In this document: positions 26,710 through 45,576 of the stretch, in pieces
Layout of the letters: each line of letters starts with the position of its first letter
Numbering within the stretch: the stretch's first letter is position 1
Source of the DNA: Cupriavidus sp. YR651
GTDB lineage: Bacteria; Pseudomonadota; Gammaproteobacteria; Burkholderiales; Burkholderiaceae
Direction: 5' to 3'
DNA: 64,000 bases
Assembly: GCF_900101625.1 (NCBI RefSeq)
Contig: NZ_FMYZ01000006.1
Location: forward strand, 62,001-126,000
Translations under genes and position numbers: made by a program
The notes under the pieces: model-generated
What the model saw: only the letters and a program-made list of their open reading frames with translations
Told to the model about the DNA's origin: nothing
Database searches by the model: none

Positions 26710-26774
26710 TGGGGCTGCGGCGGGAGGGGGACTGAGGCGTCAGCCACGTGACATCGACGCAGCCTAATTCAGCG

Positions 26775-26800
26775 AACGCATAATTATATGCGCTTGCGTT
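26775..26800 (-). promoter_or_regulatory. Palindromic operator-like site over a -10 hexamer
   Basis: On the minus strand TATAAT (26788-26783) is a perfect -10, 74 bases before the exporter ATG. It is embedded in CGCATA-ATTA-TATGCG (26777-26792), nested in a second repeat AACGCA (26775-26780) / TGCGTT (26795-26800). No good -35 is visible. Confidence 0.5.
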
Positions 26801-26952
26801 ATTTGGCGCCCGTCGCCACCCGTCGCAATTGCCCAACAAATGAGCAGCCACGACCCTCCGGCCACGCCCGGGAGGACATGGCAGGAGTTCGCGGCTGAAC
26901 CTGTGCTGTTACGAAGAGAACCGCGAGAAACGAATAAAGGGGAAAGGGCGGG

Positions 26953-27393: not shown

Positions 27394-27601
27394 GTCACCG
27401 ACTCCTTGTTGCCGTCTTGGAAACGTTGGTTGCCCTGCAGGTTACCCTGAAGGCAGGCGGGGCGCTGCGCAATGCGCCGCCAGCCACGTTCATTCAGATT
27501 AGCAAAGGATCGGCGGGGGTCACAGGGTGACTTTGGGGAATCTTTGTAAGAAATATCTGGCCATCGCCCACCCGGTCACACCCGGCAACTTCGCCCGACC
27601 G

Positions 27602-29023
27602 TTACTCCGTCAGCATCCGGACCCGGACCTTGCGGCCCTTGACCTTGCCGTCGTTGAGACGCTTGACCGCCTCGCGGCCGATGGCCCGGTCCACCGCGAT
27701 GTAGGTCGACATCTCCATCACGTTGATCTTGCCGATCTGTTCCTTGGTGTACCCGGCATCGCCGGTCAGCGCGCCCAGGATGTCGCCCGGACGTATCTTT
27801 TCCTTGCGGCCACCCAGCATCTGCAGCGTCACCATCGGCGGCAGCAGGCGTTCCTTGCTGGTGGGCACCAGTTCCGTCAGCGGATGCCATTCGAACTCGC
27901 CGCCCTGGTGTTGCTCCAGGTTTCCGACGCGTCCCATTTCATCCATGCTGACCAGGCTGAACGCCCAGCCCTCGGCATCCGCGCGACCCGTGCGGCCGAT
28001 GCGGTGCACGTGGACTTCCGGATCCGGCGTGATTTCGACGTTGATCACCGCTTCCAGCTGCGCGATGTCGAGCCCGCGCGCGGCCACGTCGGTGGCCACC
28101 AGCACGGAGCAACTGCGGTTGGCAAACTGGACGAGCACCTGGTCACGGTCACGCTGTTCCAGGTCGCCGTGCAGCGCCAGCGCCTGGAAGCCCTGCGCGC
28201 GCAGCAATTCGACCAGGTCACGGCAGCGCGCCTTGGTATTGCAGAACGCCAGCGTGCTGGCCGGACGGAAATGGTCGAGCAGGCGACCAACGGTCTGCAA
28301 CCGCGCGCCTTCCTCGACTTCATAGAAGCGCTGGCGGATCTTGCTGGCGCTGTGCGTCTCCGCCAGCTTGATCTCGCGCGGCGTCCTGAGGAACTGCTGG
28401 CTCAGTTTGGCAATGCCGGCCGGGTAGGTCGCCGAGAACAGCAGCGTCTGGCGGTCTTTCGGGCAGTGGCTGGCCACGTAGGCGATGTCGTCGAAGAAGC
28501 CCATGTCGAGCATACGATCCGCTTCGTCGAGCACCAGGGTGCTGATGCCGCGCAGATCGAGGCTGCCGCGCTCGATGTGATCGAGAATCCGCCCCGGCGT
28601 GCCCACAACGATATGCGCGCCGTGAATCAGGCTGTCCACCTGCGGACGCATCGGCGATCCGCCGCACAACGTGAGTACCTTCACGTTCTCTTCGGCGCGG
28701 GCCAAGCGGCGGATTTCCTGCGTGACCTGATCGGCCAGTTCGCGGGTGGGGCACAGGACCAGCGCCTGCACGTCAAAGCGGCGCGGATCCAGCCGGTGCA
28801 GCAGCGCCAGGCCAAATGCCGCGGTCTTGCCGCTGCCGGTCTTGGCTTGCGCGATCAGGTCCTTGCCGTCCAGCGCCACGGGGAGGCTGGCGGCCTGGAT
28901 CGGCGTCATGATGTCGTAGCCGAGCTGCGCAAGCGTCGCCAGCATCGCGGGCGACAAGGGCAGGTCGGAGAAGGGCGCGCCGGCGGCTGGCGCCGGCGTC
29001 GAAGGTGTCTGGCTGGAAGTCAT
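27602..29023 (-). CDS. dbpA: ATP-dependent RNA helicase DbpA
   Basis: DEAD-box helicase of 473 residues acting in large-subunit ribosome assembly. Helicase motifs in order: Q motif region (YDIMTPIQAASLP), AKTGSGKTAAF (I), PTRELADQV (Ia), VVGTPGRILDH (Ib), VLDEADRMLD (II, DEAD), LFSATYP (III), TDVAARGLDI (V) and VHRIGRTGRA (VI). The C-terminal domain (about 395-473; KEKIRPGDILGALTG, IAVDRAIGREAVKRLNDGKV) is the DbpA domain that binds hairpin 92 of 23S rRNA, separating it from other DEAD-box proteins. Confidence 0.96.
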   Translation of the reverse strand: MTSSQTPSTPAPAAGAPFSDLPLSPAMLATLAQLGYDIMTPIQAASLPVALDGKDLIAQAKTGSGKTAAFGLALLHRLDPRRFDVQALVLCPTRELADQVTQEIRRLARAEENVKVLTLCGGSPMRPQVDSLIHGAHIVVGTPGRILDHIERGSLDLRGISTLVLDEADRMLDMGFFDDIAYVASHCPKDRQTLLFSATYPAGIAKLSQQFLRTPREIKLAETHSASKIRQRFYEVEEGARLQTVGRLLDHFRPASTLAFCNTKARCRDLVELLRAQGFQALALHGDLEQRDRDQVLVQFANRSCSVLVATDVAARGLDIAQLEAVINVEITPDPEVHVHRIGRTGRADAEGWAFSLVSMDEMGRVGNLEQHQGGEFEWHPLTELVPTSKERLLPPMVTLQMLGGRKEKIRPGDILGALTGDAGYTKEQIGKINVMEMSTYIAVDRAIGREAVKRLNDGKVKGRKVRVRMLTE

Positions 29024-29059
29024 GCCGGATTATAGCGGTGGGGGTGAGGCCACCGGGGC

Positions 29060-30145
29060 TCAGGCGGCATTCCGGGCGGCCGCCTTCCTTGCCGGGGTCT
29101 TCTTTGCCGTCGCCTTACTTGCCGTCGCCGGAGCCTTCTTTGCCGGGGTCTTCTTTTCTGCGACCTTCTTTTCTGCGACCGTCTTTGCCGCCGTCTTCCT
29201 GGCTCCGGCCTCGGTTGCCGTCGCCGTCTTTGCTGCGGCCTTCGTCGCCGGGGCTTTCGTCGCAACCTTCGTTACAGCCTGCCGCGATACGGCCACCTTC
29301 ACCGGCGCCGCTTCCGATGGCGCCCAGCCCAGCCGCTCCAGCAACCCGCCAGCCGCTGCCGGCGCGCGTTCCTTGGCGCCATTGATGAAGAACAGGAAGA
29401 CCTCCTTCGGCCTCAATGCCGTGCCGGGCTTGTCCTCGACGCGCGGCAGGTCGTCCGGCGCCTTGCCGCCGGCCCATGCCGTGGCGCGTTTCGACCAGCT
29501 GTCGAGATCGTCCGGCGCGTAGCCGGTCGCCAGCTTCTCCTGCGCATTCATCAGCCGCGCGTAGACAAAATCCGCAGTCAGGTCGGCGAAGGACGGATAT
29601 TTCGGCGAGTCGGTGAACACCGTCGCCGCCCTGAACTTGCGGGCGAGCCGGAGATAGTCCTCGCACATGAAGCTGGGATGACGCACCTCCAGCACGTGGC
29701 GCAACGACACGCCCTCGACCGTATCGGGCAACAGGTTCAGGAAGGCCTCGAAATCGTCGGGGTCGAACTGCTTGGTCGGCGCGAACTGCCAGACAACCGG
29801 CCCCAGCTTGTCGCGCAATTCCGCGATGCCGCTGTCGATAAACCGGCTGATCGAATCGCCCGATTCCGCCAGCACGCGCCGGTTGGTGGCAAAGCGCGAC
29901 GCCTTGACGGAGAACACGAAGCCATCAGGCGTGGCATCGCGCCAGTTGGCGAATGACGTGCGCTTTTGCGTGCCGTGATACGTGCTGTTGATCTCGATGG
30001 CGGTCAGGTGCCGGCTAGCGTATTCGAGTTCGCGCGCCTGCGCGAGCCCCGCCGGATAGAAGTTGTCCCGCCACGGCGCAAAACTCCAGCCGCCAATGCC
30101 GATGTGGATATTGCCCGCTGCCTTGCCCTCTTTGCTCGCTGCCAT
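29060..30145 (-). CDS. DUF72-family protein with histone-H1-like C-terminal tail
   Basis: A 361-residue protein. Residues 12-260 are the TIM-barrel-like DUF72 domain (IHIGIGGWSFAPWRDNFYP, LTAIEINSTYHGTQKRTSF, WQFAPTKQFD, ADFVYARLMNAQEK). Residues from about 285 to 361 are almost only Ala, Lys, Thr and Pro in repeats such as KKTPAKKAPATA and KKTPARKAAARNAA, like bacterial histone-H1-like proteins. Such a tail should bind nucleic acid. The DUF72 role is unknown. The gene follows dbpA's start on the same strand and has its own ATG at 30145. Confidence 0.85.
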   Translation of the reverse strand: MAASKEGKAAGNIHIGIGGWSFAPWRDNFYPAGLAQARELEYASRHLTAIEINSTYHGTQKRTSFANWRDATPDGFVFSVKASRFATNRRVLAESGDSISRFIDSGIAELRDKLGPVVWQFAPTKQFDPDDFEAFLNLLPDTVEGVSLRHVLEVRHPSFMCEDYLRLARKFRAATVFTDSPKYPSFADLTADFVYARLMNAQEKLATGYAPDDLDSWSKRATAWAGGKAPDDLPRVEDKPGTALRPKEVFLFFINGAKERAPAAAGGLLERLGWAPSEAAPVKVAVSRQAVTKVATKAPATKAAAKTATATEAGARKTAAKTVAEKKVAEKKTPAKKAPATASKATAKKTPARKAAARNAA

Positions 30146-30258
30146 GGCCCGATCTCCGCGAAAGGCGATGGCTCGAAGTCTAGCCGGAATTGCGCGCGGC
30201 TTCGCGTCCGATTTCGGGGCGCTTCCGGGCCGCTATCGCGCCATCGCGGAGGCCCGGC

Positions 30259-30777
30259 CTACGGGCGCAGCCGGGCCGCCAGCCGTCCGCGCGTGATCGC
30301 CGCGATCTGCGCCAGGGCCTCGTCCAGCTCCTGCACTGTGGTCCGGCCAATCCGGCGTTCGAACGCCGCGAAAATGCCCTCGCGCGTGTAGTGGCGCACG
30401 CAGATGATGAACGGAAAACCATGCCGCGCCTGATAGTCGGCGTTCATCCGGTCCAGCGCGGCTTCCTCGGCCGCCGACATCGCATCGAGGCCGGCGCTCT
30501 TCTGCTCGTCATTGGAGTCGGCCGTCATGGTCCCGGCGCGGATGGCTCGGCCCGACAGCGGCGGATGGCGGTTGAGAAAGGCCGCCTGCGCGGCGGGGTC
30601 CAGCTTGCGGACGACGCCGGACATCGCATCGTGCAGCGCCGCAACGGTGGCGAACGGCCGCTGCATCCACGCGCCTTCCGCGGCCTGCGGAAAATGCTCG
30701 AACACGCTGCCGAGCGCCTCGGTGAAGGCGGCTTGATCGAGGGCATTGACCGTATTCAGATCGAGGGGCTGTGACAT
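30259..30777 (-). CDS. uraD: OHCU decarboxylase (2-oxo-4-hydroxy-4-carboxy-5-ureidoimidazoline decarboxylase)
   Basis: Third enzyme of urate breakdown, making S-allantoin from OHCU. The 172 residues begin at the ATG at 30777 (MSQPLDLNTVNALDQAAFTE). Family motifs are FLNRHPPLSGRA with the catalytic His, and TADSNDEQKSAGLDAMS; the C-terminal helix has GFPFIICVRHYTREGIFAAF. It lies near two HIU hydrolase genes on the other side of a LysR regulator, completing HIU to OHCU to allantoin. No urate oxidase gene is visible in the window. Confidence 0.94.
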   Translation of the reverse strand: MSQPLDLNTVNALDQAAFTEALGSVFEHFPQAAEGAWMQRPFATVAALHDAMSGVVRKLDPAAQAAFLNRHPPLSGRAIRAGTMTADSNDEQKSAGLDAMSAAEEAALDRMNADYQARHGFPFIICVRHYTREGIFAAFERRIGRTTVQELDEALAQIAAITRGRLAARLRP

Positions 30778-30967
30778 GAAGGACTCTCCCGTGAGAAGCA
30801 TCTGATCGACATCGAATTGATGTCGGTTTGACGATGGTGACGGGCCGAGTATAGGAACGCGATTTGGTCGCGGCGAGGGCCGGGGTCCTATAAGCCGGAT
30901 AGCAATTTCGCGATACAGCCGCGCCGCCTCCGGTTGTCTCCGGTTTCCTCCGGTTTTCTCGCCAAGC

Positions 30968-31912
30968 CTATCGATGCATGTCGCGCAGCGTCTTCAGCTC
31001 CTGCGACGCCTGCGTCAGCAATCCGCGCAACCAGACATGCGCCGCCGAGCGATGGCGCGACGGATGCCACAACTGATAGAAGCGCATGAACGGAAAGTCG
31101 ATCGGCGGCTTGAGCACCGCCAGCGGCACATGCTGCGCGTGAAAGTTGGCAAAGTGACGTCCGGTCGTCAGGATCAGGTCCGTGCCGGGAATCAGGCTGG
31201 GTGCCAGATTGAAATAGGGACAGCTCACGCGATTGTCCCGATGGACGCGCATGGTGCTGAGGCCCGTATCGACCACCCCGCGCTGGTCGCGCGAGTAGGG
31301 CGTCGGCACGATATGCGCCGCGCCGAGGTAAGCCTGCGCGGTGAACTTGCCCGGCTGCGTGTACGCGCTGTCCTGCGCCACCACGCAGACCACCTCGTCC
31401 TCCAGCAATACCGACAGATGCAGGTGTTCCGGCGGATTCGGCCAGTTGCCGATCACGATGTCCGCGTCACCAGCCGACAGCGCCTGCTCGTAGTCGAACG
31501 TGGAACCCAGCGGCATCGCCACCAGCCGCGCGCGCGGCGCGGCCGCGCGGAAGACGCGTACCACGTGGGCAAAGAAGGGCGGCGCCAGGTAGTCCGGCAT
31601 CGCCACCACGAAGGTTTGCTCAGAGGTGGCCGGATCAAAGTGCTCGTCCGACACCAGCAGGCTGTCCAGCGCGCTCAGCGCGGCCTGGGCGTTGCGCGCC
31701 AGCTGCAAGGCGCGCTCGGTGGGCACCATCACATTCTTTTCACGCGTCAGCAGCGGGTCGTTGAAGATGGCGCGCAGGCGCTTCAGCGCGGCGCTGATGG
31801 CCGGTTGCGACTGGTTCAGCCGGATGGCCGTGCGCGACACGCTTTGCTCGGCAATCAGGATGCACAGCACGCGCAGCAGGTAGGTATCGAACGGATCGTC
31901 GGCGCGGTTCAT
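30968..31912 (-). CDS. LysR-family regulator of the urate locus
   Basis: A 314-residue LysR-type regulator. I chose the ATG at 31912 (MNRADDPFDTYLLRVLCIL), where the winged helix begins: SRTAIRLNQSQPAISAALKR is the recognition helix-turn-helix. The effector domain (about 95-300) starts TFVVAMPDYLAPPFF. It is divergent from the MFS-HIU hydrolase operon with 419 bases between and probably responds to urate or a breakdown product. The ligand is inference from context. Confidence 0.9.
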   Translation of the reverse strand: MNRADDPFDTYLLRVLCILIAEQSVSRTAIRLNQSQPAISAALKRLRAIFNDPLLTREKNVMVPTERALQLARNAQAALSALDSLLVSDEHFDPATSEQTFVVAMPDYLAPPFFAHVVRVFRAAAPRARLVAMPLGSTFDYEQALSAGDADIVIGNWPNPPEHLHLSVLLEDEVVCVVAQDSAYTQPGKFTAQAYLGAAHIVPTPYSRDQRGVVDTGLSTMRVHRDNRVSCPYFNLAPSLIPGTDLILTTGRHFANFHAQHVPLAVLKPPIDFPFMRFYQLWHPSRHRSAAHVWLRGLLTQASQELKTLRDMHR

Positions 31913-32331
31913 GGGAGGGCGGCCAGATACGGTGGCCACTGGCGGGTGGATGACGCGTTTGTACCGTGCCCGGCACCGCGCCGCAACGCGGCAGAACCCG
32001 CACTCCGCCGATTTGCGGAGTTCGCCGCAGCGACCCGATGCACCACCACGGCATCGCCGCCGACGCGCCGGTGCATCGCGCCCCGGCATGGCGATTTTCC
32101 GCCCGATGCACCGCACCAACCCGGCGCTCAGGGTAATCCATAGGTCGGCCAACGGCCTCGCGGATCGCCCGCAAACCCGCATGGCACAAGGCATTCCAGC
32201 CCATACGATGGTTGCTATGCGGCCTATACCAGCCATCGCGTTCCCTTGGCCGGCGCCATTTCTATACTGGCCTCAACCGGGCCGGACGAAGCCCACCCAT
32301 ACAGGCCATACAGAGACAAGCGAGGAACGAC
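31913..32331. other. Long LysR/MFS intergenic region with repeated motifs
   Basis: No gene is seen. GATGCACC occurs at 32037-32044 and 32105-32112 (both within CCCGATGCACC) and in inverted form, GGTGCATC, at 32070-32077, giving sites about 33-35 bases apart. A separate inverted repeat, ACTCCGC-CGATTT-GCGGAGT, lies at 32002-32021. A TATACT hexamer at 32263-32268 may be the -10 of the MFS operon, 63 bases before its ATG; its -35 is poor, as for activated promoters. Confidence 0.5.
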
Positions 32332-33690
32332 ATGTCGACCACCAAGCAGGGCATCCCCATGTTCACCGCCACGGCGGACGACGCCGAAGACGGTGTTTAC
32401 CGAAAAATCTCCTGGCGTCTGCTGCCGTTCCTTGGCGTGCTCTGGGTGCTGGCATGGCTGGACCGCGTCAACATCGGCTTCGCCAAGCTGCAGATGCTGG
32501 AATCCCTCCAGTTCAGCGAGGCCGTCTACGGGCTGGGCGCCGGCATCTTCTTCCTCGGCTACTTCTTCTTCGAGGTGCCGTCGAACATGCTGCTACAGAA
32601 GATCGGCGCCAAGAAGACGATCATGCGCATCACGATCTGCTGGGGCATCATCTGCATGCTGCAGACCTACGTCACCACGCCCACGCAGTTCTACATCCTG
32701 CGCTTCCTGCTCGGCGCGTTCGAAGCCGGCTTCTACCCCGGCGTGATCCTGTACCTCACCTACTGGTATCCGACGCAACGCCGCGCCCGGGCATTCGGCA
32801 CGTTCATGTCGGCATCCGCCATCGCCGGCGTGCTGGGCGGCCCGATCGCCGGCTACATCATGACGTCGATGGGCGGCGTGCACGGCATGCACGGCTGGCA
32901 GTGGCTGTTCATCATCGAAGGCATTCCGTCCGTGCTGGCTGGCGTCTTCGCGTGGTTCTACATGACGGACAAGCCGGAGAAGGCCAACTGGCTCACCGCC
33001 GACGAGAAGCGCGTGGTGGAGACCGTGCTCAAGCGCGACGAGGCCGCCCTTGGCGAGCGCCGTCACGACTGGCGCGAGCTGTTCGGCAACAAGAAGGTCT
33101 GGCTGCTGATCGCGATCTACTTCTGCCTGCTCTGCGCCAATTCCACGCTGACGTTCTGGATCCCGACCATTATCAAGGAAGTGGGCTTCTCCGCGCCGAT
33201 GACGGTGGGCTGGATCGCCGCAGTGGCCTACCTGGGCGGCGCGGCCGGGATGATCCTGAACGGCGCGCATTCCGACCGCCGCAACGAGGTGCGGTGGCAT
33301 TTCACCGGCGCGGCGTTCGTGGGCGGCGTCGCCATGGCCGTCCTGGCCGTGCTGCTGGGTACGTCGATCACGCCGATGCTCCCACTGATTGCCATGACCG
33401 TCGCACTGGTCGGCACCATGAGCGCCATCCCCGTGTTCTGGCAACTCCCCAACCGCTACCTCGCCGGCAGTGCCGCAGCGGTGGGCGTGGCGCTGATCAA
33501 CTCGGTTTCCAACCTGGCGGGCTTTGGCGCGCCCTATGTGATGGGCCTGATCAAGAACGCCACGGGCCAGGTCTCCCCGGGGCTCTACATCGTGGCCGCC
33601 ATCGAGATCGTGGCGGGCGTGCTGGTGCTGGCTGGCATCCGCCAGCTCCACGCGTCCCGCAAGGGCGTGGCTTCGGCCAAGGGGGTGTGA
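32332..33690 (+). CDS. MFS transporter (ACS family) of the urate locus
   Basis: A 452-residue, twelve-helix importer. Signature segments: WVLAWLDRVNIGFAKLQM in helix 1, FFLGYFFFEVPSNMLLQKIG in helix 2, RFLLGAFEAGFYPGVILYL in helix 4 and FWIPTIIKEVGFSA near helix 7. It resembles tartrate/phthalate-type symporters. The ATG at 32332 follows GAGGAAC. The next gene starts one base after its stop. Context suggests import of a purine breakdown product such as urate, HIU or allantoin-related acid. Confidence 0.88.
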   Translation: MSTTKQGIPMFTATADDAEDGVYRKISWRLLPFLGVLWVLAWLDRVNIGFAKLQMLESLQFSEAVYGLGAGIFFLGYFFFEVPSNMLLQKIGAKKTIMRITICWGIICMLQTYVTTPTQFYILRFLLGAFEAGFYPGVILYLTYWYPTQRRARAFGTFMSASAIAGVLGGPIAGYIMTSMGGVHGMHGWQWLFIIEGIPSVLAGVFAWFYMTDKPEKANWLTADEKRVVETVLKRDEAALGERRHDWRELFGNKKVWLLIAIYFCLLCANSTLTFWIPTIIKEVGFSAPMTVGWIAAVAYLGGAAGMILNGAHSDRRNEVRWHFTGAAFVGGVAMAVLAVLLGTSITPMLPLIAMTVALVGTMSAIPVFWQLPNRYLAGSAAAVGVALINSVSNLAGFGAPYVMGLIKNATGQVSPGLYIVAAIEIVAGVLVLAGIRQLHASRKGVASAKGV

Positions 33691-33691
33691 C

Positions 33692-34282
33692 ATGACCGAC
33701 AGATCGAGCAATACGCGGGGCGGCGCACCGGGCAATGCGCCGAACGACACGCGAATCGACACCACGCGGATCAACACCAGTCGCCGGCGCTTCGCGCTGC
33801 AGTCCGTCACGCTGGGCAGCGGCGCGCTGATCGCGGCCACGTCGCTCACCGCGCAAGCCGCCGAGACAGCGCCCACCTCGACGCCAGCGCCCAACCAGAC
33901 CACGGGGCCGGTGCAGCAGGGCGGGCTGAGCCCGCGCCTGACGATGCACGCGCTGGACACCTACCATGGCACGCCGGCCGCCGGCCTGCGTGTCGACTTC
34001 CTCAAGATCGACGGCGCGCACTCGCAGATGATCCGGACGGTCACGCTGCCTGGCAACGGCCGCACCGACCCGCCGCTGCTGATCGGCGATACGTACCGCG
34101 CCGGCACGTACGAGCTGGTGCTGCACGTGGATGAATACTTTGCCGAGCGCCAGGCCGCACTGCCGCAACCGCCATTCCTTTCCAGGATTCCGCTGCGGTT
34201 CCGCATCACCGACGTGACGCAGCGCATCCACCTGCCCGTGCTGTTTGGGCCGTGGAGCTACAACTACTATCGCGGCAGCTGA
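33692..34282 (+). CDS. 5-hydroxyisourate hydrolase with Tat signal
   Basis: Transthyretin-like HIU hydrolase of 196 residues. Residues 1-58 hold a twin-arginine signal (SRRRFALQSVTLGSGALIAA) ending near AQA, so it is exported folded. The mature domain has LTMHALDTYHGTPAAGLRV, GNGRTDPPLL and the C-terminal YYRGS motif that carries active-site residues. It directly precedes a second, cytoplasmic HIU hydrolase. Its presence implies that HIU, or a similar ureide, arises or is taken up in the periplasm. Confidence 0.9.
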   Translation: MTDRSSNTRGGAPGNAPNDTRIDTTRINTSRRRFALQSVTLGSGALIAATSLTAQAAETAPTSTPAPNQTTGPVQQGGLSPRLTMHALDTYHGTPAAGLRVDFLKIDGAHSQMIRTVTLPGNGRTDPPLLIGDTYRAGTYELVLHVDEYFAERQAALPQPPFLSRIPLRFRITDVTQRIHLPVLFGPWSYNYYRGS

Positions 34283-34293
34283 GGGAGACGATC

Positions 34294-34629
34294 ATGGCAG
34301 GCATCAGCACCCACGTACTGGACGTATCGCTCGGCAAGCCGATCGCCGGGATGCAGATCGAGTTGTTCGACATCGCAGCACAACCGCCCAAAATGATCAC
34401 CCGCGCCCGGACCAACGCGGACGGCCGCACCGATTCGCCGATGTTGCCCGCGGCGCAGGCGCGGACCGGGGAGTTCGAACTGCGCTTCTATGTGGCCGAG
34501 TATTTCAAGTCCGCCGACGTGTTCGCGGACATCGTGCCAGTGAGGTTTTCGATCGCCGATGCGACGCAGCATTACCACGTGCCCCTGATCTGCTCGGCGT
34601 GGAGTTTCGGCACCTATCGCGGCAGTTGA
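34294..34629 (+). CDS. hiuH: 5-hydroxyisourate hydrolase, cytoplasmic
   Basis: A 111-residue transthyretin-related hydrolase without a signal peptide. Family motifs: ISTHVLDVSLGKPIAGM (active-site His), RTNADGRTDSPML (Arg), and the terminal signature FGTYRGS. It hydrolyses HIU, the urate oxidase product, to OHCU, which UraD then decarboxylates. The ATG at 34294 has GAGGGAG upstream and it lies 12 bases after the Tat-dependent homologue. Normal length for bacterial HIU hydrolase. Confidence 0.94.
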   Translation: MAGISTHVLDVSLGKPIAGMQIELFDIAAQPPKMITRARTNADGRTDSPMLPAAQARTGEFELRFYVAEYFKSADVFADIVPVRFSIADATQHYHVPLICSAWSFGTYRGS

Positions 34630-34736
34630 ATCCCCGGCCGGGCCATTGAGCGCCCGGTGCATCATCGGAAACGCATAACGCGTGTCGTAGAATAAACGCG
34701 ACTAGCCCCCGTTCGTTCCGGACCGGAGGATTCGCG

Positions 34737-37415
34737 TTGCGCCCCAACTCTGACTCGCTCGATCCGCTCCGCCAGGCGCACCATGCGCTCCCCGGCTTTC
34801 GGCTGGCGAGGCTCGAGGTGTCCAACTGGGGACCGTTCGGCCACCATGTCTGGGCGATGCCACTGGACGGCGGCAACATCCTGCTGACCGGCGACGCCGG
34901 CTCCGGCACCACGGCACTGGCCGATGCCGTCATCACGCTCCTGACGCCTGGCGATCACATTCCCGGCGATGCGTTGTCCGGCACGCGACAACATGGCAAT
35001 AGCCATGCGGTCATCCTCGGCGTATTCCGCAACATCGACGATAACCAGACCGTCTTGCTGGCCCAGGTCTTTCTGCCCACGGCCGGCCCGCCGCGGCGGT
35101 ACTTCATCTGCGCGGGGCGTGATCTGACCATCACCCATGACATCGCACCGACCGGGGCCGACGTCGCCGCGTGGCGTACCGCGATCGTCAACACTGGCGC
35201 GGCATGGTTCGATGACCGCTCGCACTATGAAGCGTGGTGTCGCCAGCACCTCGGCATCGACGACGGCCATGCGCTGACGCTGTGCCGGCATCTGGCGTCG
35301 ATGAGCGGGACGGACGACCTCACGGAATTCCTGCGCCATCATGTACTGCCGCCCGACGACACCCCGGCACGCCTCGCCGCCCTGCTCGGCCACTTCGACG
35401 ATCTCGACAGCGCTCACGAAGCGATCCTCCATGCCAGACGGCAGGAGGCGATGCTCGCGCCGCTGGTGGCCGAATGCGAACGGCACGCCGAACTGTCCGC
35501 CACCATCGACGACCTGCGCACTTGCCGCGAGGCGCTGCATGGGTATTTCGCGGAGCTGAAGCGCGATTTGCTGAACGAACGGCTGGCCGCCCTGGACGAC
35601 GAACGCGACCGGCAGGAGCGCCATGTGAACTGGCATCAGGTACGGTGCGATGCCCTGCACGCCGAGGCGCTGGCTCTGCGGCAACGGCTCTCCGACCAGG
35701 GCGGTGACCCTATCGCCCAGCTTGAGCTGGCGATCCAGCAGAAAGAGCGCATGCGGGAGCAGCGCAAGCAGCGCGCCGCCACGTATCGGCGACTCGTCGA
35801 ACGGTTGCGTATCCCGGCGGCCGAGACCGAAGCGGACTTCCGCGCGCAACAGGATCGGCTGGCCACATGGCAGCCCAAGGCTGCCGAACGCGAGGCCGCA
35901 CTGCGCAACGCACACAATGAACTGACGCTGCAGCTACGCCTGGAAGCGCCGGCCGCGCCCATCGACGACCCGGCTCGCACGAGCGCGTTGCAAGGCAAGA
36001 TCGCGCAGATCGACGCCGCGCTGGCCACGCTCCGCGACCAGCAGATTGCAGCCGCGCAGATCGCCATGATCGGGGACTTCACGGAAGTGGACTGGCGGTC
36101 AGCGGCGGTGGAAGTGGCGCGCCTTGATGAGGAGAAGGTGCGCCAGTCGAATCCCGACGCGCTGCGGCCGCTTGCCGACGAACTGGACGCGTTGCAAGCG
36201 ACGATCCGCGAAGCCGAGCAGCATCTCCAGGACGCCCGCGAGGCGCGCATCGCCCTCCAGGCAAAGCACGACATCGTCATGGCATGGCATCAGGACACCG
36301 AAGCGGTGCTGGCCGAATCGTTGCCAGCCATGCAGACGGTCTCCCCCGAGCGCCTCGATGCGATACGCGCCGAGGCGCTTGGCGAACACAAGCTGACGCT
36401 GGAATGCGTCGACCACCGGCAGCAGGATGTCCGCACCTGGCTGCAGGCCCACATCGACGCGGAGGCCGGCCGGCTTGATCGCTTCACCGAACACGTGCTC
36501 AGGATCCTGTGCGCCTTCAAGGCGGCATTTCCGGTGGAGACCGCACAGATGGAAGCCAGCCCCGCCGCCCGATCCGGCTACCAGAACCTGCTGGAGACAC
36601 TGCGCACCTCGGAGCTGCCGCGCCTGACCGCCCGCTTCGACGACCTGCTGAGCCTCAACATGGTCTACGAGATCGCCTACTTCCACGGCCATCTGGGCAA
36701 GGCGTTGGAGGCGGTGCGCGGGCGCGTGGCGCAGATCAATGCCGTGCTGGCGCGGATCGACAGTACTAGCGGCCAATACGCCCAGATCGACCTCGAAGCC
36801 GATCTCGACGCCGACATCCGCGACTTCGAGCAAGAGCTCCATCTGTGCACGGAAGCCACGCCGGACATCGAGCGCGCCGAAGAGCGGTTTGCACGGATCG
36901 AACGACTGTTGAACCGCTTGCGGGATGGCCCGCAACAGTCTGACCCGGACCGGCTGTGGACATCGAAGGTAACGGACGTGCGCAACTGGTTCCACATCGG
37001 CGTCAGCGAGCGATGGCGCGCGGAAGATCCCACGCACACCCACTACATCGACACGGACGATCCCGCGGGGACGCATCGGGCCCGGCTGGCCTACTCGATC
37101 CTCGCGGCCAGTCTGGCCGATGCGCTGGCGTGGCAGGAGGATGAGACGCGATCGCGAGCGCTGCGCTTCGTGGTGCTCGGCGACCGCTTCGGCCAGGGCC
37201 CCGACACACTGATCCGCCCCGTGCTGCAGCGATTTGCCGGACTTCAGGTCCAGTTGTTGATCGCCGCACCGCTGCAGAAGGTGCCCGTCATGGAACCGTT
37301 TGTCTCAACCGTGGCTTACGTGCGCAAGACCGACGACGGCACATCGGCCGTGCATAGCTTGCCTATTGATGCGTATCGGGCGGTGAAGGGGAGAGGGCGC
37401 GGGAGCAGCGGTTGA
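34737..37415 (+). CDS. Orphan JetC/SMC-like coiled-coil protein with degenerate ATPase motifs
   Basis: An 892-residue protein with the layout of Wadjet JetC/MksB-type SMC proteins: N-terminal head (FRLARLEVSNWGPFG; LLTGDAGSGTTALADAV), long charged coiled coils (about 235-720) and C-terminal head (ARLAYSILAASLADALAW; FVVLGDRFGQG; LLIAAPLQKVPVMEPFV). Each ATPase motif is altered: Walker A reads GDAGSGTT with Thr58 for Lys, the SGGQ signature reads PAGT (776-779), and Walker B's DE pair reads GD (815-816). It is shorter than the roughly 1,100 residues usual for JetC. The start is TTG with an excellent GGAGGA six bases upstream. No jetA, jetB or jetD lies nearby. ATP hydrolysis seems lost; the intact long frame argues against a recent pseudogene. 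Confidence 0.78.
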   Translation: MRPNSDSLDPLRQAHHALPGFRLARLEVSNWGPFGHHVWAMPLDGGNILLTGDAGSGTTALADAVITLLTPGDHIPGDALSGTRQHGNSHAVILGVFRNIDDNQTVLLAQVFLPTAGPPRRYFICAGRDLTITHDIAPTGADVAAWRTAIVNTGAAWFDDRSHYEAWCRQHLGIDDGHALTLCRHLASMSGTDDLTEFLRHHVLPPDDTPARLAALLGHFDDLDSAHEAILHARRQEAMLAPLVAECERHAELSATIDDLRTCREALHGYFAELKRDLLNERLAALDDERDRQERHVNWHQVRCDALHAEALALRQRLSDQGGDPIAQLELAIQQKERMREQRKQRAATYRRLVERLRIPAAETEADFRAQQDRLATWQPKAAEREAALRNAHNELTLQLRLEAPAAPIDDPARTSALQGKIAQIDAALATLRDQQIAAAQIAMIGDFTEVDWRSAAVEVARLDEEKVRQSNPDALRPLADELDALQATIREAEQHLQDAREARIALQAKHDIVMAWHQDTEAVLAESLPAMQTVSPERLDAIRAEALGEHKLTLECVDHRQQDVRTWLQAHIDAEAGRLDRFTEHVLRILCAFKAAFPVETAQMEASPAARSGYQNLLETLRTSELPRLTARFDDLLSLNMVYEIAYFHGHLGKALEAVRGRVAQINAVLARIDSTSGQYAQIDLEADLDADIRDFEQELHLCTEATPDIERAEERFARIERLLNRLRDGPQQSDPDRLWTSKVTDVRNWFHIGVSERWRAEDPTHTHYIDTDDPAGTHRARLAYSILAASLADALAWQEDETRSRALRFVVLGDRFGQGPDTLIRPVLQRFAGLQVQLLIAAPLQKVPVMEPFVSTVAYVRKTDDGTSAVHSLPIDAYRAVKGRGRGSSG

Positions 37416-37417
37416 AG

Positions 37418-37486
37418 TTACCGAGCGGGAAGATTTTGGGGTGGTGTGGCGGTTTGGCGGCTATATCTTCCCGAGCGGTAATTTTT
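37418..37486 (+). terminator. Terminator-like inverted repeat after the JetC-like gene
   Basis: TTACCG-AGC-GGGAAGAT (37418-37434) and ATCTTCCC-GAG-CGGTAA (37465-37481) can pair except for the central three bases, with a 30-base loop, and TTTTT follows at 37482. It begins two bases after the stop codon. The loop is long, so it may instead be a binding site. Confidence 0.5.
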
Positions 37487-37560
37487 CACGGATGCCTGGT
37501 TCGAAGGCGACTGAACGCTGCTGGGGTCCGCCAAAGATGCCAGATCGCACATCCTCCGGA

Positions 37561-37890
37561 TCACACGGCCTTGCCAGCAGGGTATTTCCGCGCGTTCATT
37601 TCCATTTTCGCCCTCACCGCCGCGTCCAGATCAACCCCCAGCGCCGTCACAAGCTGCGACAGGTAGATCGTGATATCGGCCAGTTCTTGCTCGACGTGCT
37701 CGCGCTCCGCAGTCTCCATGATCGCGTGCGATTCGGACTCCGTCTGCCACTGAAAAATCTCCACCAGTTCGGCCACTTCCACGCTCAGGGCCATGGCCAG
37801 GTTCTTGGGGCTGTGATATTTGCCCCAGCCGCGCTCCTCGCCGAAGTCGGCGGCGGCTTGCTGCAGGTTCTTGATGTCGATGAGAGGCAT
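37561..37890 (-). CDS. MazG-like nucleotide pyrophosphohydrolase
   Basis: A 109-residue all-helical NTP pyrophosphatase of the MazG/RS21-C6 type. The metal-binding acidic residues appear as ALSVEVAELVEIFQW and EHVEQELADITIYL (ExxE and ExxD). Such single-domain enzymes hydrolyse non-canonical or modified dNTPs (for example dCTP derivatives) to monophosphates. The gene is alone and convergent with the JetC-like gene, with a gap of 145 bases. Confidence 0.9.
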   Translation of the reverse strand: MPLIDIKNLQQAAADFGEERGWGKYHSPKNLAMALSVEVAELVEIFQWQTESESHAIMETAEREHVEQELADITIYLSQLVTALGVDLDAAVRAKMEMNARKYPAGKAV

Positions 37891-38069
37891 GGCGGATGTG
37901 GGGTCGTGCGAATCGAATTGCGGAAGGCGCTCGGCGCTGCGGTTAGCGGGCCCGGGAGGTCGATTTTACCGTCTTGGGTGTCGCAACTTGCCCCCGCCGG
38001 ATACCCGGCCGGCAGGGTGCTTCACAACGGACTACGCTGTAGCGAGGAAGTCGCTCAGCGGAGCCTGAT

Positions 38070-38729
38070 GTGAGATCAAAGTCGCTACTGGCCTTGTTCA
38101 GTCTGATTGGCGTCGTGGCCTATCTTGGCATCGCCGCACTTGGAGCCGGCGGCGTTGCCGCCTTTCTCTCTCACCCCGCCCGGATCGCACTGGCCGTCGT
38201 CACGATTGCCTTGACGGTGGCGGCGCTGTTCACCGAGGCGAATCTAAGCTCCGGCGAGCGGGAGGATCGAGGGAATCGCTGGGTGCTGATTGCCTTCGGA
38301 TTGCTGGGGTTGTTATCCGCCTATCTGCCGGCCTACACCGAACGCATCGGCTTCTGGACCTTCGGCGGCGACGGCACCCGATGGCTCGGCGTCGCGCTGT
38401 TTGCCATCGGCGGCGCGCTGAGGCTTTGGCCAGTGTTCGTGCTCGGGAATCGCTTTAGCGGATTGGTGGCAATTCAGCCCGGGCACCGGTTGATGACCAC
38501 CGGCCCCTATCGACTGGTTCGAAATCCGAGCTATCTCGGCCTGCTTGTCAACGCATTGGGCTGGGCGCTGGCCTTTCGGTCGGGGGTCGGCGTGATACTC
38601 GCGCTGCTGATGCTGCCGCCATTGATCGCCCGAATGCATTCGGAGGAAAGACTGCTGCTCGATGAATTCGGTACGGAGTACGCGGACTACCGCGACAGGA
38701 CGTGGAGACTGGTGCCGTATTTGTATTAG
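38070..38729 (+). CDS. Membrane methyltransferase of the ICMT/PEMT-like family
   Basis: A 219-residue integral membrane protein starting at GTG 38070 (GGAG eight bases upstream). Several hydrophobic helices are followed by the family signature GPYRLVRNPSYLGLLVNALG and an ending HSEERLLLDEFGTEYADYRDR. These match the S-adenosylmethionine site of isoprenylcysteine carboxyl methyltransferase-like bacterial proteins. The natural substrate, a lipid or small molecule, is unknown. It has no obvious operon partner. Confidence 0.85.
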   Translation: MRSKSLLALFSLIGVVAYLGIAALGAGGVAAFLSHPARIALAVVTIALTVAALFTEANLSSGEREDRGNRWVLIAFGLLGLLSAYLPAYTERIGFWTFGGDGTRWLGVALFAIGGALRLWPVFVLGNRFSGLVAIQPGHRLMTTGPYRLVRNPSYLGLLVNALGWALAFRSGVGVILALLMLPPLIARMHSEERLLLDEFGTEYADYRDRTWRLVPYLY

Positions 38730-38848
38730 GGCGGGGTTCCTTTACGGCTTTGTTTCATTCGCGCGACGACGTTCGCGGCATGTCGACACGTCGTCACTCT
38801 TGCTGGCCCCCGCACCGGCGGATCATCACCGCCGGCAACTTGCTGCTG

Positions 38849-39178
38849 TCAGATCTGATCAAGCAATTGGTTGGCGCTGTGGTCCACCTGCTGCTTCAGG
38901 GGCGCGAGCAAGGCGTGAAGCCCCGCACATTCGATCGCGACATCGCCTTGCAGATCCAGCAAGTTCAAGACCGCTTGCAAGCCCGCGCCGAGGCGCAGCA
39001 AATCGTCGCAGACTGCGATGATGTGGTCTTGCTGGGTGACGGGTAGGGCGGACGGATCTGGCGCGTTCGTCGCCACTCGGCGCACCAATGGGCGACCTCC
39101 TCGCGCGGGTCTCTTCGATATCTGGGGGGAATGCTCTGGAACCTGGAATGGCTTTGTCCGAGCTGTACTGCCTTTCAT
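38849..39178 (-). CDS. Small helical protein, possibly DUF1484-like
   Basis: A 109-residue protein from the ATG at 39178, which has GGAGGT four bases upstream. A basic, Pro/Arg-rich N-terminus (residues 1-45) is followed by a helical domain: AVCDDLLRLGAGLQAVLNLL, and DVAIECAGLHALLAPLKQQVDHS. I think it resembles the Ralstonia/Cupriavidus-restricted DUF1484 family but cannot confirm that. There is no signal peptide or membrane helix. Lineage-specific and of unknown function. Confidence 0.6.
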   Translation of the reverse strand: MKGSTARTKPFQVPEHSPQISKRPARGGRPLVRRVATNAPDPSALPVTQQDHIIAVCDDLLRLGAGLQAVLNLLDLQGDVAIECAGLHALLAPLKQQVDHSANQLLDQI

Positions 39179-39629
39179 GGCGACCTCCGTATATGTGGAC
39201 TGGAGGCCCGCACTTCCGCTGTCATCCGGGGTGGGCGGGCACGAGGCAGGGTTGACAGACCGGCCACACATACCGGCGAGCCCGGAGGCTCCCCCGCCAA
39301 GGCCCGCCCAATGGACGTGCGAAGGCAATGGACGAGAAGGATACAACTGCTTGCGTCGTCCGGTTGTGGAACGGGCTGTCAAACCCGGTCGACTGTTGTT
39401 TGCAGCGACCATGACAGTCTCGCCGGAAGGGTGCCTGCCATCTAGGCGACTATTCTCATTCTCGAGGATAGAAGTATGTCTCGAGCGTGAACTACCCAAG
39501 CGGACAAATGCCGAGCGAGGGGATACTCGGCATAGCGCTATAAAAAAAGCTCGGACGTTTGTCCGAGCTTTTTCCTACTGGTGGAGCGCTAGATACCGCC
39601 CAGAAAATCAGGCGGCTCTTGCGGGCCCC
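39179..39629. other. Intergenic region upstream of the small helical protein and after gyrB
   Basis: I see no convincing gene in these 451 bases. Structures present: TGCCGAG-N9-CTCGGCA (39509-39531), two CTCGAG sites flanking 13 bases (39461-39485), and the gyrB terminator (39543-39573). The promoter of the 38849-39178 gene must lie in the left part, but no clear -10/-35 pair stands out. Confidence 0.4.
39543..39573. terminator. Bidirectional intrinsic terminator after gyrB
   Basis: AAAAAAGCTCGGAC, loop GTTT and GTCCGAGCTTTTT form a strong stem with A and T runs on both sides, 57 bases beyond the gyrB stop. Confidence 0.93.
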
Positions 39630-42161
<2,532 letters not shown>

Positions 42162-42244
42162 CTACTCACGATGCTCACGGCAAATGCGGAAACCGGACCG
42201 GCGCCAAAACTGGCGGGTACGAGGTCCGCAAAAGCGGGTTACTT

Positions 42245-42285
42245 AAAAACGGCAAAAGGGGCGGATCGATATGGATCCTGCCCCT
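42245..42285 (-). terminator. Terminator-like hairpin between dnaN and gyrB
   Basis: Read on the minus strand, AGGGGC-A-GGATC and GATCC-G-CCCCT pair around CATATC and are followed by TTTGCCGTTTTT. It would end or attenuate dnaN transcription, so gyrB may depend partly on its own promoter between 42156 and 42244. Confidence 0.55.
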
Positions 42286-42391
42286 GCTGCGGTGGGTCTG
42301 CCCGGCGTGTCTCCTGGACGCGCCGGACGCCGTAGCGTGCCGTTCGATGCTCCGGTCTTGCGTATCTTGTCGTCCTATTACCGGAGGATCA

Positions 42392-43507
42392 TCAGATGCG
42401 CATCGGCATGACGACGTATTTGAAGTTGTCGTCTTCCGGCACGGTAATCAGCGCACTCGAATTGGAGTCGCCGAGGCTGACCTGCACCTGCTCGCTCTTC
42501 AGGTTGGCCAATACGTCGAGCAGGTAGGTCACGTTAAAGCCGATATCCAGGGCGTCGCCCGAATAATCGAGTTCCAGCTCTTCCTGCGCCTCTTCCTGAT
42601 CGGCGTTGGTGGAGCTGATCTTCAGCATGTGCGTGTCGAGGATACAGCGCACACCCTTGAACTTGTCGGTAGTCAGGATCGCGGTGCGTTGCAGCGCCTG
42701 CTGCAGCTTCACGCGGTCGATCGCAAACGCGTTCTTGTAGCCCTTGGGGATCACGCGCTGGAAATCCGGGAACTTGCCCTCCACCAGCTTGCTGATCAGT
42801 TCGATGTTGGCGAAGGAGAACTTGACCTGGTTGGCGGCCAGCTGCACCTGCACGGGATCGTCGTTGTCTTCCAGCAGGCGTTGCAGTTCCAGGATGGTCT
42901 TGCGCGGGATGATGACTTCCTGGCGCGAACCCGCGCCAGTGGCCTCGTTTTCCAACTCAACGCCGCAGTACGCCAGGCGGTGTCCGTCGGTAGCCACGGC
43001 CATCACCTTCTTGCCGTCCACCACCAGCAGCATGCCGTTCAGGTAGTAACGGATGTCCTGCTGCGCCATCGCAAAGTGGACCATCGCCAGCAGGTGCTTG
43101 AAGGTCTTCTGCGGCAGGCTCACGCTCGCGTTGAACTCGGCGGCCTCGGCCACCGTCGGGAATTCTTCCGCGGCCAGCGTCTGCAGCGCAAAGCGGCTCT
43201 TGCCGGATTGCACCGTCATGCGCTTGTCGTTCAGGGACAGCGCGACGTCGCCATCGGGCATGGCGCGCAGGATGTCCAGAAGCTTGCGGGCGGCCACGGT
43301 GGTGGCCACGCTGTCGCTACCGACGCCGCATTCGGCGTGGGTCGTGATCTGGATCTCGATGTCGGTCGAGAGGAAGGATACGTTCGAGCCGGACTTGCGA
43401 ATCAGCAGGTTGGCCAGGATCGGGAGGGTGTGGCGGCGCTCCACGATGCCGCTCACGATTTGCAGCGGACGCAGCAGATTGTCTCGCGAGGTTTTGACCA
43501 ATTGCAT
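42392..43507 (-). CDS. dnaN: DNA polymerase III beta subunit (sliding clamp)
   Basis: Ring-shaped processivity clamp, 371 residues, three repeated domains. Start MQLVKTSRDNLLRPLQIVSG and end DDNFKYVVMPMRI match the family; NLLIRKSGSNVSFLSTDIEIQ and LAMVHFAMAQQDIRYYLNGM are conserved. The C-terminal MPMR(L/I) tail closes the hydrophobic client-binding pocket. Between dnaA and gyrB on the minus strand, with 365 bases separating it from dnaA. Confidence 0.98.
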   Translation of the reverse strand: MQLVKTSRDNLLRPLQIVSGIVERRHTLPILANLLIRKSGSNVSFLSTDIEIQITTHAECGVGSDSVATTVAARKLLDILRAMPDGDVALSLNDKRMTVQSGKSRFALQTLAAEEFPTVAEAAEFNASVSLPQKTFKHLLAMVHFAMAQQDIRYYLNGMLLVVDGKKVMAVATDGHRLAYCGVELENEATGAGSRQEVIIPRKTILELQRLLEDNDDPVQVQLAANQVKFSFANIELISKLVEGKFPDFQRVIPKGYKNAFAIDRVKLQQALQRTAILTTDKFKGVRCILDTHMLKISSTNADQEEAQEELELDYSGDALDIGFNVTYLLDVLANLKSEQVQVSLGDSNSSALITVPEDDNFKYVVMPMRI

Positions 43508-43872
43508 TGAATTTATCCTTCGTCGTTTGTCGTCAGCGACCGCGGGTTGCGCGCAACTCCAAATTCACTTTGGAATCAAGGAGTTAATAGCGCATTGTAC
43601 CAAGGATAAGCCGCTGCGGTGAAGCGGGACGATCCCGGCGAGGCCGCGGGTTGTGCACAAAAAGCCACGCCCCGTCACCGACCCTTGCCAAACCGTCCCG
43701 ACTCACCGCAAAGCCTTATCTGAGGCCAAATCCCCGCGATCCAACCATTGATTCAGGCGCCCGTTTGCCGCCGGGCGCGCACCCAGTAGTATGCCAGCCC
43801 GGCAAGGCTGGCCTTCAAAATCGTAAAACTGCGTCAGGCGATGCGTAATCCACTCCGCGTCGCGCGTTCGCA
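43508..43872. other. dnaA-dnaN intergenic region
   Basis: No gene is evident. It contains the palindrome TTGTGCACAA at 43651-43660, identical to one in oriC and DnaA-box-like, and a GC-rich hairpin around GGCGCCCG/CCGGGCGC (43755-43775). It most likely holds the dnaN promoter. No strong T-run terminator follows dnaA. Confidence 0.5.
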
Positions 43873-45576
43873 TCAGCCCTTGAGCGTCTGTTCCAGCACG
43901 TGCAGTTCGTGGTTGAGCTGCGCATCCTTGCTGCGCTCGTCGGCGATCTTGCGGACGGCGTGGAGCACCGTGGTGTGATCGCGCCCGCCGAAGAGTTCGC
44001 CGATTTCCGGCAGGCTCTTCTGCGTGAGTTCCTTGGCCAGGTACATCGCAATCTGGCGCGGTCGCGCGATATTGGCGGGACGCTTCTTGGAGTACATGTC
44101 CGCGACCTTGATGTTGTAGAAGTCCGCGCACGTCTTCTGGATGTTCTCCACGGAGATCTGGCGGTTCTGCACGGTCAGCAGGTCTTTCAGGGCCTCGCGC
44201 GTGACATCGATCGTGATGTCCTTGCCATGGAAATTGGAGAACGCCAGGATCTTGCGCAGCGCGCCTTCCAGCTCACGCACGTTCGATCGCAGGTGCTTGG
44301 CCACGAAGAAGGCGACTTCTTCCGGCACGTTCACGTTCTCTGCCGCCGCCTTCTTCATCAGAATGGCAACGCGCATTTCCAGCTCTGGCGGCTCGATCGC
44401 CACGGTCAGGCCGGAGTCGAAGCGCGAGATCAGCCGGTCGTCGATGCCGGTGATTTCCTTGGGATACGTATCGCTGGTGATGATCACCTGCGCGCGGTTG
44501 GCGATCAGCGCCTCGAACGCGTAGAAGAACTCTTCCTGCGTGCGGTTCTTGCCAGAGAAGAACTGAATATCGTCGATCAGCAGCAGGTCCAGCGAGTGGT
44601 AGTACCGCTTGAACTCGTCGAACGCCTTGCGCTGGTAAGCCTTCACCACATCGGACACGTACTGTTCCGCGTGGATGTAGCGGATACGCGCGCGCGGGTT
44701 CTCCATCAGCATGAAGTTGCCGATGGCATGAATCAAGTGGGTCTTGCCCAGGCCAACGCCGCCGTAGAGATACAACGGGTTGTAGGACTTCCCGGGGTTA
44801 TTGGCCACCTGGATGGCGGCGGCGCGCGCAAGCTGGTTGGCCTTGCCGGTGACGAAGTTGTCGAACGTCAGGATCGGGTTCAGGCGCGAGCGCTCGTGCA
44901 CGGTGTCGTTCGGCTGCGCGGCCGGCATCGGCGGTTGCTGCGGCTGCCGGTAGGACCGGGCGCTGGCTTCGGCCGGGTCCATCTGGGCGACGTCGATCTC
45001 ACCCATGTCGGGCACGTGGCCGCCTGCGTTACCCTGCAACGGATGGCCGGTTGGCGCCATCTGGCCACGATTGGCCATCGGCGCGCCCGACTGCGACGCG
45101 GGGTAGGGCGATTGGCCGGCCATGCTGCCATGACCGCCAGGCGCGGCGTTGCCATGACCCGGATAGTCGGGATAGCCGCCTGCCTGGCCCGGGTGCTGTG
45201 CGGCCGGCTGGCCATAGGCGTGGGCGCCCGACTGCATGTTCGGATAGGACGCACCGCCCGTACCCATTGCAGCGTGCGCGGCCGGATTCTCCTGGCCCTG
45301 CTGGGTGTAAGCCGCCGACCGGCCCGACGCAGCGGGATCCAGGACGAAGTGAACGCTGACCTGCGCTTCCCAGTATTCGCATGCCAGGGCCGTGATGCGG
45401 CCCGAAAATTGGCTCTTGACCCAGTCCAGTTTGAAGCGATTGGGCGCGGCAATCCGCAGCGCATGCGCCTCCTCGTCGAAGGCGACGGGCGCCAACGGCT
45501 TGATCCAGGTCTTGAACTGTTGCGGCGTCAGCTCGCGCTCGAGTTGCGCGGCTGCCGCCTGCCAGAAATCTTGCAT
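43873..45576 (-). CDS. dnaA: Chromosomal replication initiator DnaA
   Basis: AAA+ initiator of 567 residues, longer than E. coli DnaA because of a large domain II linker rich in Gly, Pro, Gln, Ala and Tyr (about residues 95-225). Domain I starts [20 protein letters not shown]. Domain III has [22 protein letters not shown] (Walker A), LLIDDIQFF (Walker B) and SRFDSGL. Domain IV has [19 protein letters not shown] and [15 protein letters not shown], the DnaA-box-binding signature. It is transcribed away from oriC, leading dnaA-dnaN-gyrB. Confidence 0.98.

Follow-up and report, generated by a model that had tools for sequence, protein, structure and literature searches.

An intact frame for a JetC-derived protein

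The 64,000-nucleotide stretch of the Cupriavidus sp. YR651 genome analyzed here (contig NZ_FMYZ01000006.1, positions 62,001 to 126,000; called the window below, with positions counted from its first nucleotide) carries a gene at 34737..37415 whose predicted product is a degenerate JetC, the SMC-like subunit of the type I Wadjet system JetABCD. A preliminary description of this DNA had called the product an orphan, maintained, JetC-like pseudo-ATPase. The features of the gene are as follows.

34737..37415, plus strand: gene for an 892-amino-acid, predicted ATPase-dead and hingeless JetC-derived protein (jetA-jetC fusion); TTG start, homology in a single frame, PADLOC JetC1 match
34725..34729, plus strand: ribosome-binding site GGAGG, 7 nt upstream of the TTG start codon, as seen in the sequence
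34737..34790, plus strand: first 18 codons, from the start of jetA by comparison with seven intact JetA N termini
34887..34916, plus strand: Walker A remnant TGDAGSGTTA (intact TGDIGSGKST; Lys58 to Thr), from alignment to intact JetCs
34986..34991, plus strand: junction of an in-frame deletion of ~30 residues within the head (~residue 84), from alignments
35940..36032, plus strand: site of ~200 missing residues (distal coil and hinge), from alignments, the profile gap, and the AlphaFold model
37053..37076, plus strand: ABC signature remnant TDDPAGTH (intact SGGKSGGQ), from alignment to intact JetCs
37167..37190, plus strand: Walker B remnant FVVLGDRF (intact FVVIDEAF), from alignment to intact JetCs

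The frame runs for 892 codons from the TTG start with zero internal stops, as first described. JetC/SMC kinship was confirmed by profile search, in which the PADLOC JetC1 model (PDLC00512) matched the protein with an E value of 1.4e-203 (677 bits). Among solved chains, its top sequence matches were JetC (best E value, 1.8e-11). Pfam placed AAA_29 over its cutoff and SbcC_Walker_B slightly under (26.6 versus 27 bits), and NCBIfam gave merely two subthreshold matches. Membership in a non-SMC family was ruled out by the Pfam, PADLOC, solved-chain, and structure matches. The protein is 41 to 44% identical to seven intact JetCs of Cupriavidus (1,124 amino acids from the conserved start), which are 78 to 95% identical among themselves. 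A second isolate, Cupriavidus sp. RAF12, possibly a close relative, encodes a protein (P0002) of equal length that is ~98% identical (16 of 892 residues differ) and, by eye, has the same motifs. A sequencing error or decay in a single strain was thereby judged unlikely and rejected. A phage origin was also rejected, there being no match to the gene in 50,697 phage records.

Loss of the ATPase motifs, distal coil, and hinge

The Walker A Lys, the SGGQ signature, and the Walker B Asp-Glu pair of a functional type I JetC are all missing from the window protein. At eight catalytic-motif positions, K, S, S, G, G, Q, D, and E have become T, T, A, G, T, H, G, and D. The substitution of all three motifs reported earlier, including Thr for Lys58 and FVVLGDRF, is thus upheld, except that the residues aligned to SGGQ are AGTH rather than PAGT. 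The altered motifs support the prediction that the protein is a JetC-like pseudo-ATPase, as had been proposed.

The intact-JetC profile covers the protein over profile positions 14 to 77, 115 to 433, and 644 to 1121, all in one frame, with ~434 to 643 unmatched, and the hinge that separates the two coil arms of functional JetC is therefore absent. Compensated frameshifts were looked for and rejected, as every significant hmmsearch segment of the window gene falls in the same frame. An AlphaFold model (55 sequences; predicted local distance difference test [pLDDT], 83.5; predicted template modeling score [pTM], 0.57) has a head like that of JetC, set on a hairpin of coiled coil that ends in a short turn (residues 407 to 411) in place of the hinge. 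Its best match in the PDB was the JetABC chain 9qxt_A (template modeling [TM] score of 0.60 by query and 0.70 by target). What remains is most of the head together with the neck and a rod of reduced length.

The N terminus appears to come from a different subunit. Residues 1 to 18, LRPNSDSLDPLRQAHHAL, are identical to the JetA N termini of seven intact operons (e.g., LSLEYDTLERLRQSHPAW) at 6 to 8 of 18 positions, a score equaled by 1 of 5,000 shuffles. The nucleotide match to the jetA consensus was 30 of 51, compared with a maximum of 29 among 2,128 other in-frame windows. Aligned in register with the seven intact JetC N termini, the same residues had 0 of 18 identities, and the gapped match was equaled by 454 of 5,000 shuffles. 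Because the N terminus aligns with JetA, a deletion probably joined the start codon and first codons of jetA in frame to jetC.

A remnant of a resident Wadjet operon

Two neighbors of the gene served to place it.

34294..34629, plus strand: HIUase/transthyretin-family gene directly upstream of jetC, which closes a LysR-MFS-HIU-HIU block at 30968-34629
37561..37890, minus strand: MazG-like gene, the syntenic anchor, found in 60 of 60 genomes of the genus

The surroundings of MazG were compared between the window and 59 other genomes of the genus. An intact jetABCD operon lies beside MazG in 7 of the 60 (G015, G020, G024, G025, G033, G039, and G044), and a second anchor, DUF72, lies on the far side of the operon in 6 of these 7, the stretch of G033 ending before DUF72 is reached. 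Across all 60 neighborhoods, DUF72 was not seen within the fetched stretch in 7 (G003, G005, G006, G007, G016, G046, and G058). At the same slot, one genome (G008) carries a piece of jetA, a full-length jetB, and a 543-amino-acid jetC, while the window carries jetC alone. In neither is there a jetD between jetC and MazG. The start of the G008 locus is similar to that of the window gene, and the final third of jetA follows it in the same frame. When the leader and first 15 codons of the window jetC were compared with those of the G008 jetA, 3 of 500 shuffles were as good; for comparisons with intact jetA leaders, the number was 1 to 115 of 500. A common leader upstream of the two genes was rejected, as the leader alone was equaled by 283 of 1,000 shuffles.

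Because relatives hold intact jetABCD beside the same anchors, and given the jet-gene traces at the slot (the fused jetA codons of the window and the jetA piece and jetB of G008), the window gene is almost certainly the remnant of a resident type I Wadjet operon rather than an independent invention. The label "orphan" is accurate for this genome but hides that origin. As claimed earlier, no jetA, jetB, or jetD is adjacent. A tblastn search of window positions 24001-44000 found none of them at an E value of 1e-3, with chance-level scores at an E value of 10, and the Pfam JetB, JetA, and JetD_C profiles had no match in the whole host genome (1 of 14 control genomes was positive per search). The company of jetA, jetB, and jetD expected of a functional type I JetC is thus missing from the host. 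Three traits escaped the preliminary description: the loss of ~200 residues of coil and hinge, the JetA-derived start, and the syntenic intact operons in 7 of 60 genomes.

Several observations concern the wider region. The LysR-MFS-HIU-HIU block lies upstream of jetC in the window but downstream of jetABCD in G015 and G024 (L036 and L037), a local rearrangement of two blocks. The jet operons of G025, G033, and G044 are within ~30 kb of gyrB, and in G057 a jet operon lies ~18 kb from MazG. Genome G037 has a different type I jet operon (L039:6014-12791; best JetC model, PDLC00518) directly beside gyrB, and the region has therefore hosted a Wadjet more than once. No jet traces were found at an E value of 1e-3 in the MazG neighborhoods of the other 49 genomes. 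Within the window, an Rfam C4 antisense RNA (RF01695) was detected at 39227-39315 on the minus strand (55.3 bits; gathering threshold, 45), in the gap downstream of gyrB.

A sister family of short JetC proteins

When the G008 protein was used as a query, eight clusters of mini-JetCs of 538 to 564 amino acids were recovered: P0019 to P0024 (90 to 91% identical), P0025 (59%), and P0026 (58%). The homologue searches with the window protein, the G008 protein, and the G008 JetB each scored the 7,995 to 8,000 candidates sharing most words, and these family sizes are lower bounds. The mini-JetCs have common deletion junctions in the head, in the coil and hinge, and ahead of Walker B. All lack the Walker A Lys, having T or A there, while Walker B ranges from an intact IDEAF (P0026) to IDSGF (P0025), with DE kept in the G008-type clusters and P0026. 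Less of the head is retained than in the window protein, and parts of the N-lobe, of the neck coil, and of the C-lobe (at its C-terminal end) survive in both forms. The G008 jetC gave a single stray out-of-frame hmmsearch segment (E value, 3). No published description of a mini-JetC family or of such remnants was found in a literature search, in which subscription papers were mostly not covered.

In a tree of 51 sequences, built on the 522 columns shared with the mini forms, the degenerate proteins (window and mini forms) split from the intact JetCs with a support of 100, as did the mini forms among them, although long branches could inflate these values. Conserved columns were changed in both the window and G008 proteins at 56 of 223 positions, versus 33.9 expected. 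Twelve of these changed to an identical residue, of which one (residue 10) should be discounted because it belongs to the stretch that stems from JetA. The absence of jetD from both loci is separate support for kinship. These comparisons suggest that the Walker A Lys was lost before the window lineage parted from its sister lineage, in which the proteins have ~545 residues.

The best 120 of 7,475 matches to the G008 JetB included P0050 to P0055 (87 to 100% identical), P0056 (66%), and P0057 (64%). JetB P0056 and mini-JetC P0025 sit on contigs of equal length (6923), and for this reason JetB and mini-JetC probably travel together. Carriage of mini form P0021 on plasmids was considered and rejected, as none of the 6 records spanned 80% of the query.

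The contigs of 583 relatives were scanned for JetC, and the best 80 loci were kept. In a first pass, the longest frame was under 1,000 amino acids in 4 loci, and 8 of the 80 failed the check for NWG or SGGQ, sometimes because the longest frame was another gene. In a repeat, 77 of the 80 had a frame with both NWG and a P-loop, and none of these 77 lacked the Lys. The only degenerate forms seen in this analysis are thus those of the window genome (G000), G008, and protein records. Two short pieces in other genera, G239:C17:188583-189638 (three TGA codons) and G097:C11:9084-9344 (one TGA), show ordinary decay unlike the window gene.

Possible evolutionary constraint on the frame

Two explanations for the persistence of this frame were weighed. 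In one, the remnant has been retained by selection for work that needs no motor. In the other, jetABCD was whittled down by one deletion after another once it was no longer useful, and the jetC frame is open through inertia or because constraint was lifted only recently, its sequence drifting almost neutrally. Slow erosion would account for the disappearance of the ATPase residues, the hinge, and the partners and for the high protein divergence. In a tree of dnaN and gyrB, which covers 46 of the 60 genomes, the window genome branches as the sister (support, 100) of a 15-genome clade in which G008 falls. The signs expected of an ordinary pseudogene are lacking: neither lineage has a stop or a frameshift, P0002 is equal in length, and homology keeps to one frame across every indel. 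GC content by codon position (.73/.46/.82) is coding-like, and the ratio of changes at codon position 2 to those at position 3 was 0.64 (95% interval, 0.57 to 0.73). The same architecture persists among mini-JetCs that are merely 58 to 61% identical, and two of six other short JetC pieces in the family, besides that of G008, carry stops inside the match (G239 and G097), a weak contrast with the window gene.

Neutral drift was simulated from the window frame. At 0.1 substitution per site, 0.7 to 4.5% of runs (depending on GC content) remained free of stops before indels were considered; at that distance or more, at least 95% of runs gained one. Frameshift survival was modeled with assumed indel:substitution ratios of 1:10, 1:20, and 1:50, 80% of indels being frameshifting. 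Estimates put the branch since G008 at 0.15 to 0.8 substitution per site, varying with the clock gene and the method, which is 1.5 to 8 times longer than the simulated 0.1. Because simulated drift mostly gains stops over such a branch, the frame has probably been shielded over the greater part of its past, barring a recent release.

Rates of change at the amino acid level were estimated as the ratio of nonsynonymous to synonymous substitution (dN/dS, or omega). Because free codon fits run to saturation, omega was estimated with the time fixed from neighboring genes. For the window-G008 pair, it was 0.60 with gyrB, 0.47 with DEAD, and 0.35 with DUF72 or MazG, and omega = 1 fitted worse by 30 to 96 log units. 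The branch codon model and free pairwise maximum likelihood also reject omega = 1, but they were set aside, as their branch lengths saturate and the free fit of this pair diverges. By the Nei-Gojobori method (NG86), dN/dS was 0.50 for the window-G008 jetC pair, compared with 0.02 to 0.13 for five neighboring genes of the same genomes.

Several results weigh against retention, and some of them speak directly for erosion. Timed by dnaN, omega was 0.99, which would permit neutrality at the amino acid level, and our confidence in retention is lowered for this reason. The choice of clock gene thus makes omega range from 0.35 to 0.99, and every value is approximate, since synonymous sites are near saturation. 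Under omega = 1, the distance of the pair (2.42 neutral substitutions per codon) falls inside the range of the neighbors, from 1.75 (dnaN) to 4.70 (DUF72). The NG86 ratios of the degenerate jetCs (0.42 to 0.51), versus 0.11 to 0.19 for intact jetCs, indicate much faster evolution. In the stretches that were compared, no degenerate relic is present in the other 14 genomes of the sister clade, one of them G037; the gene is dispensable and has been lost in most relatives. If release was recent (0.05 substitution per site), 6 to 16% of simulated runs stayed open. Long chance frames are common in this DNA, a 417-amino-acid antisense frame overlapping jetC itself. No sigma-70-like promoter or terminator was found at the window gene, and jetC stands alone in a genome without Jet partners. 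Conserved motif residues were kept at 10 of 25 positions versus 179 of 296 for other conserved residues (intact references were the 38 of 55 alignment rows with TGDxGSGKST), but this signal is marginal (P = 0.057), and selective removal of the catalytic residues, that is, selection against ATPase activity, is not supported. As most homologues in its input alignment were motif-intact JetCs, the AlphaFold model of the window protein indicates compatibility with the fold and is not proof of folding, and the model of mini form P0021 (pLDDT, 83.1; pTM, 0.49) fits solved JetC less well (best match, 8dk2_D; TM score, 0.37/0.28).

On the other side, omega was below 1 with four of the five clock genes, and the dnaN-timed fit was poorer than those with longer times (log likelihood of -3871 versus -3827 and -3794); synonymous change in dnaN, a strongly conserved gene, may be slow. 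On balance, retention is favored over slow erosion, which we nevertheless regard as a serious, if lesser, possibility. The earlier word "maintained" is favored insofar as the frame has stayed open over a long divergence and proteins of this kind persist in a sister family; it is not proven, given the dependence on the clock gene. The preliminary description had also envisaged that intact orthologues might expose decay confined to one strain. Intact orthologues do exist, but the decay is common to a second isolate and the sister family.

Proposed role and implications

That the window protein is a retained, nucleotide-independent remnant of JetC working without a motor is the reading to which we lean, by a modest measure. 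The gene stems from a type I jetABCD operon; by alignment, jetC is fused in frame to the jetA start, the hinge and distal coil are deleted, and the ATPase motifs are substituted. After the loss of the Lys, selection would mostly have kept the frame for a protein that lacks ATPase residues and presumably cannot extrude loops. Such a protein may be a passive binder in which the surfaces of the JetC head and neck, carried on a truncated coiled-coil rod, hold DNA or a partner protein. Candidate partners in the sister lineage are the JetB that was kept and, for G008, the leftover C-terminal part of JetA.

JetABCD needs both ATP and an active JetC ATPase for cleavage (PMC10586767). With its catalytic residues gone, the window protein is not expected to serve as a Wadjet motor. 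Loss of the hinge alone would not be decisive, because an engineered core of Escherichia coli JetC, in which elbow-to-hinge residues 348 to 686 were swapped for a short linker, can still cut plasmid DNA when it has its partners and is held by a crosslink at the elbow (PMC12647877).

The preliminary description had offered a decoy, an inhibitor of a Wadjet/Mks complex, or a new scaffold as candidate roles. The partly retained N-lobe, neck coil, and C-lobe end could instead make the protein a poison or decoy subunit, whose neck and head surfaces would bind JetA and JetB and thereby block a Wadjet that enters the cell, which might, for instance, spare the plasmids already resident there. Relief from Wadjet could pay, as Wadjet strongly blocks plasmid uptake in Clostridium cellulovorans (PMC12287153), but in the accessible part of a study of Cupriavidus necator H16, deletion of a predicted type III Wadjet had no effect on electroporation or plasmid stability (PMC12645576). 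Poisoning through the hinge is impossible for a protein without one, and nothing among our results points directly to inhibition. G008, and probably the genome of P0025, hold their own JetB beside the mini-JetC, which poorly fits a simple sponge. For that reason, we weight a decoy or inhibitor below passive binding and consider it improbable.

Proteins of the SMC family are generally viewed as ATP-driven motors. If retention is true, a JetC that keeps its frame without motor, hinge, or partners would mean that Wadjet components can be of use even when no loops are extruded, and it suggests that a dismantled defense machine left a protein still worth keeping. The two lineages (892 amino acids alone; ~545 amino acids with jetB in at least one genome) would be natural separation-of-function material for the JetC head, the neck, and JetB. 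They also carry a warning for annotation. Public records call some of these proteins "ATP-binding protein," two mini-JetC records being labeled "ATP-binding protein [Cupriavidus campinensis]," and one match to a JetC profile is no proof of a working plasmid defense. A broader proposal, advanced tentatively and about as readily doubted as believed, is that these proteins form an undescribed class of ATPase-dead, hingeless JetC remnants (~890 amino acids alone; ~545 amino acids accompanied by JetB and in some cases by a C-terminal piece of JetA), selected in Cupriavidus since the motor was lost for a nucleotide-independent job as a DNA or partner scaffold or a counter-Wadjet factor.

Comparison with known systems

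The window protein resembles type I JetC (PDLC00512) in its homology over the head, neck, and most of the coil and in its genomic neighborhood. It differs in lacking the Walker A Lys, the signature, the Walker B acidic pair, the hinge, and jetA, jetB, and jetD, and its N terminus appears to derive from JetA. With the mini-JetCs it shares the absence of the Walker A Lys and hinge and a grouping apart from intact JetCs (support, 100). The mini-JetCs are shorter (538 to 564 amino acids), have further shared deletions in the head and coil, keep the Walker B DE in some members, and are accompanied by jetB in G008 and probably in the genome of P0025. The deletion in the window gene naturally removes an elbow-to-hinge part similar to that taken from the engineered JetC core (PMC12647877), but that core forms stable dimers by its elbow crosslink and cleaves with its partners, whereas the window protein has neither ATPase residues nor partners. 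Another related case is Lamassu LmuB, a short SMC/Rad50-like defense protein in which Walker B is generally changed and hydrolysis is putatively little or none (PMC10586767). The accessible part of that report mentions a Walker B change alone for LmuB, whereas the window protein has also lost Walker A and the signature.

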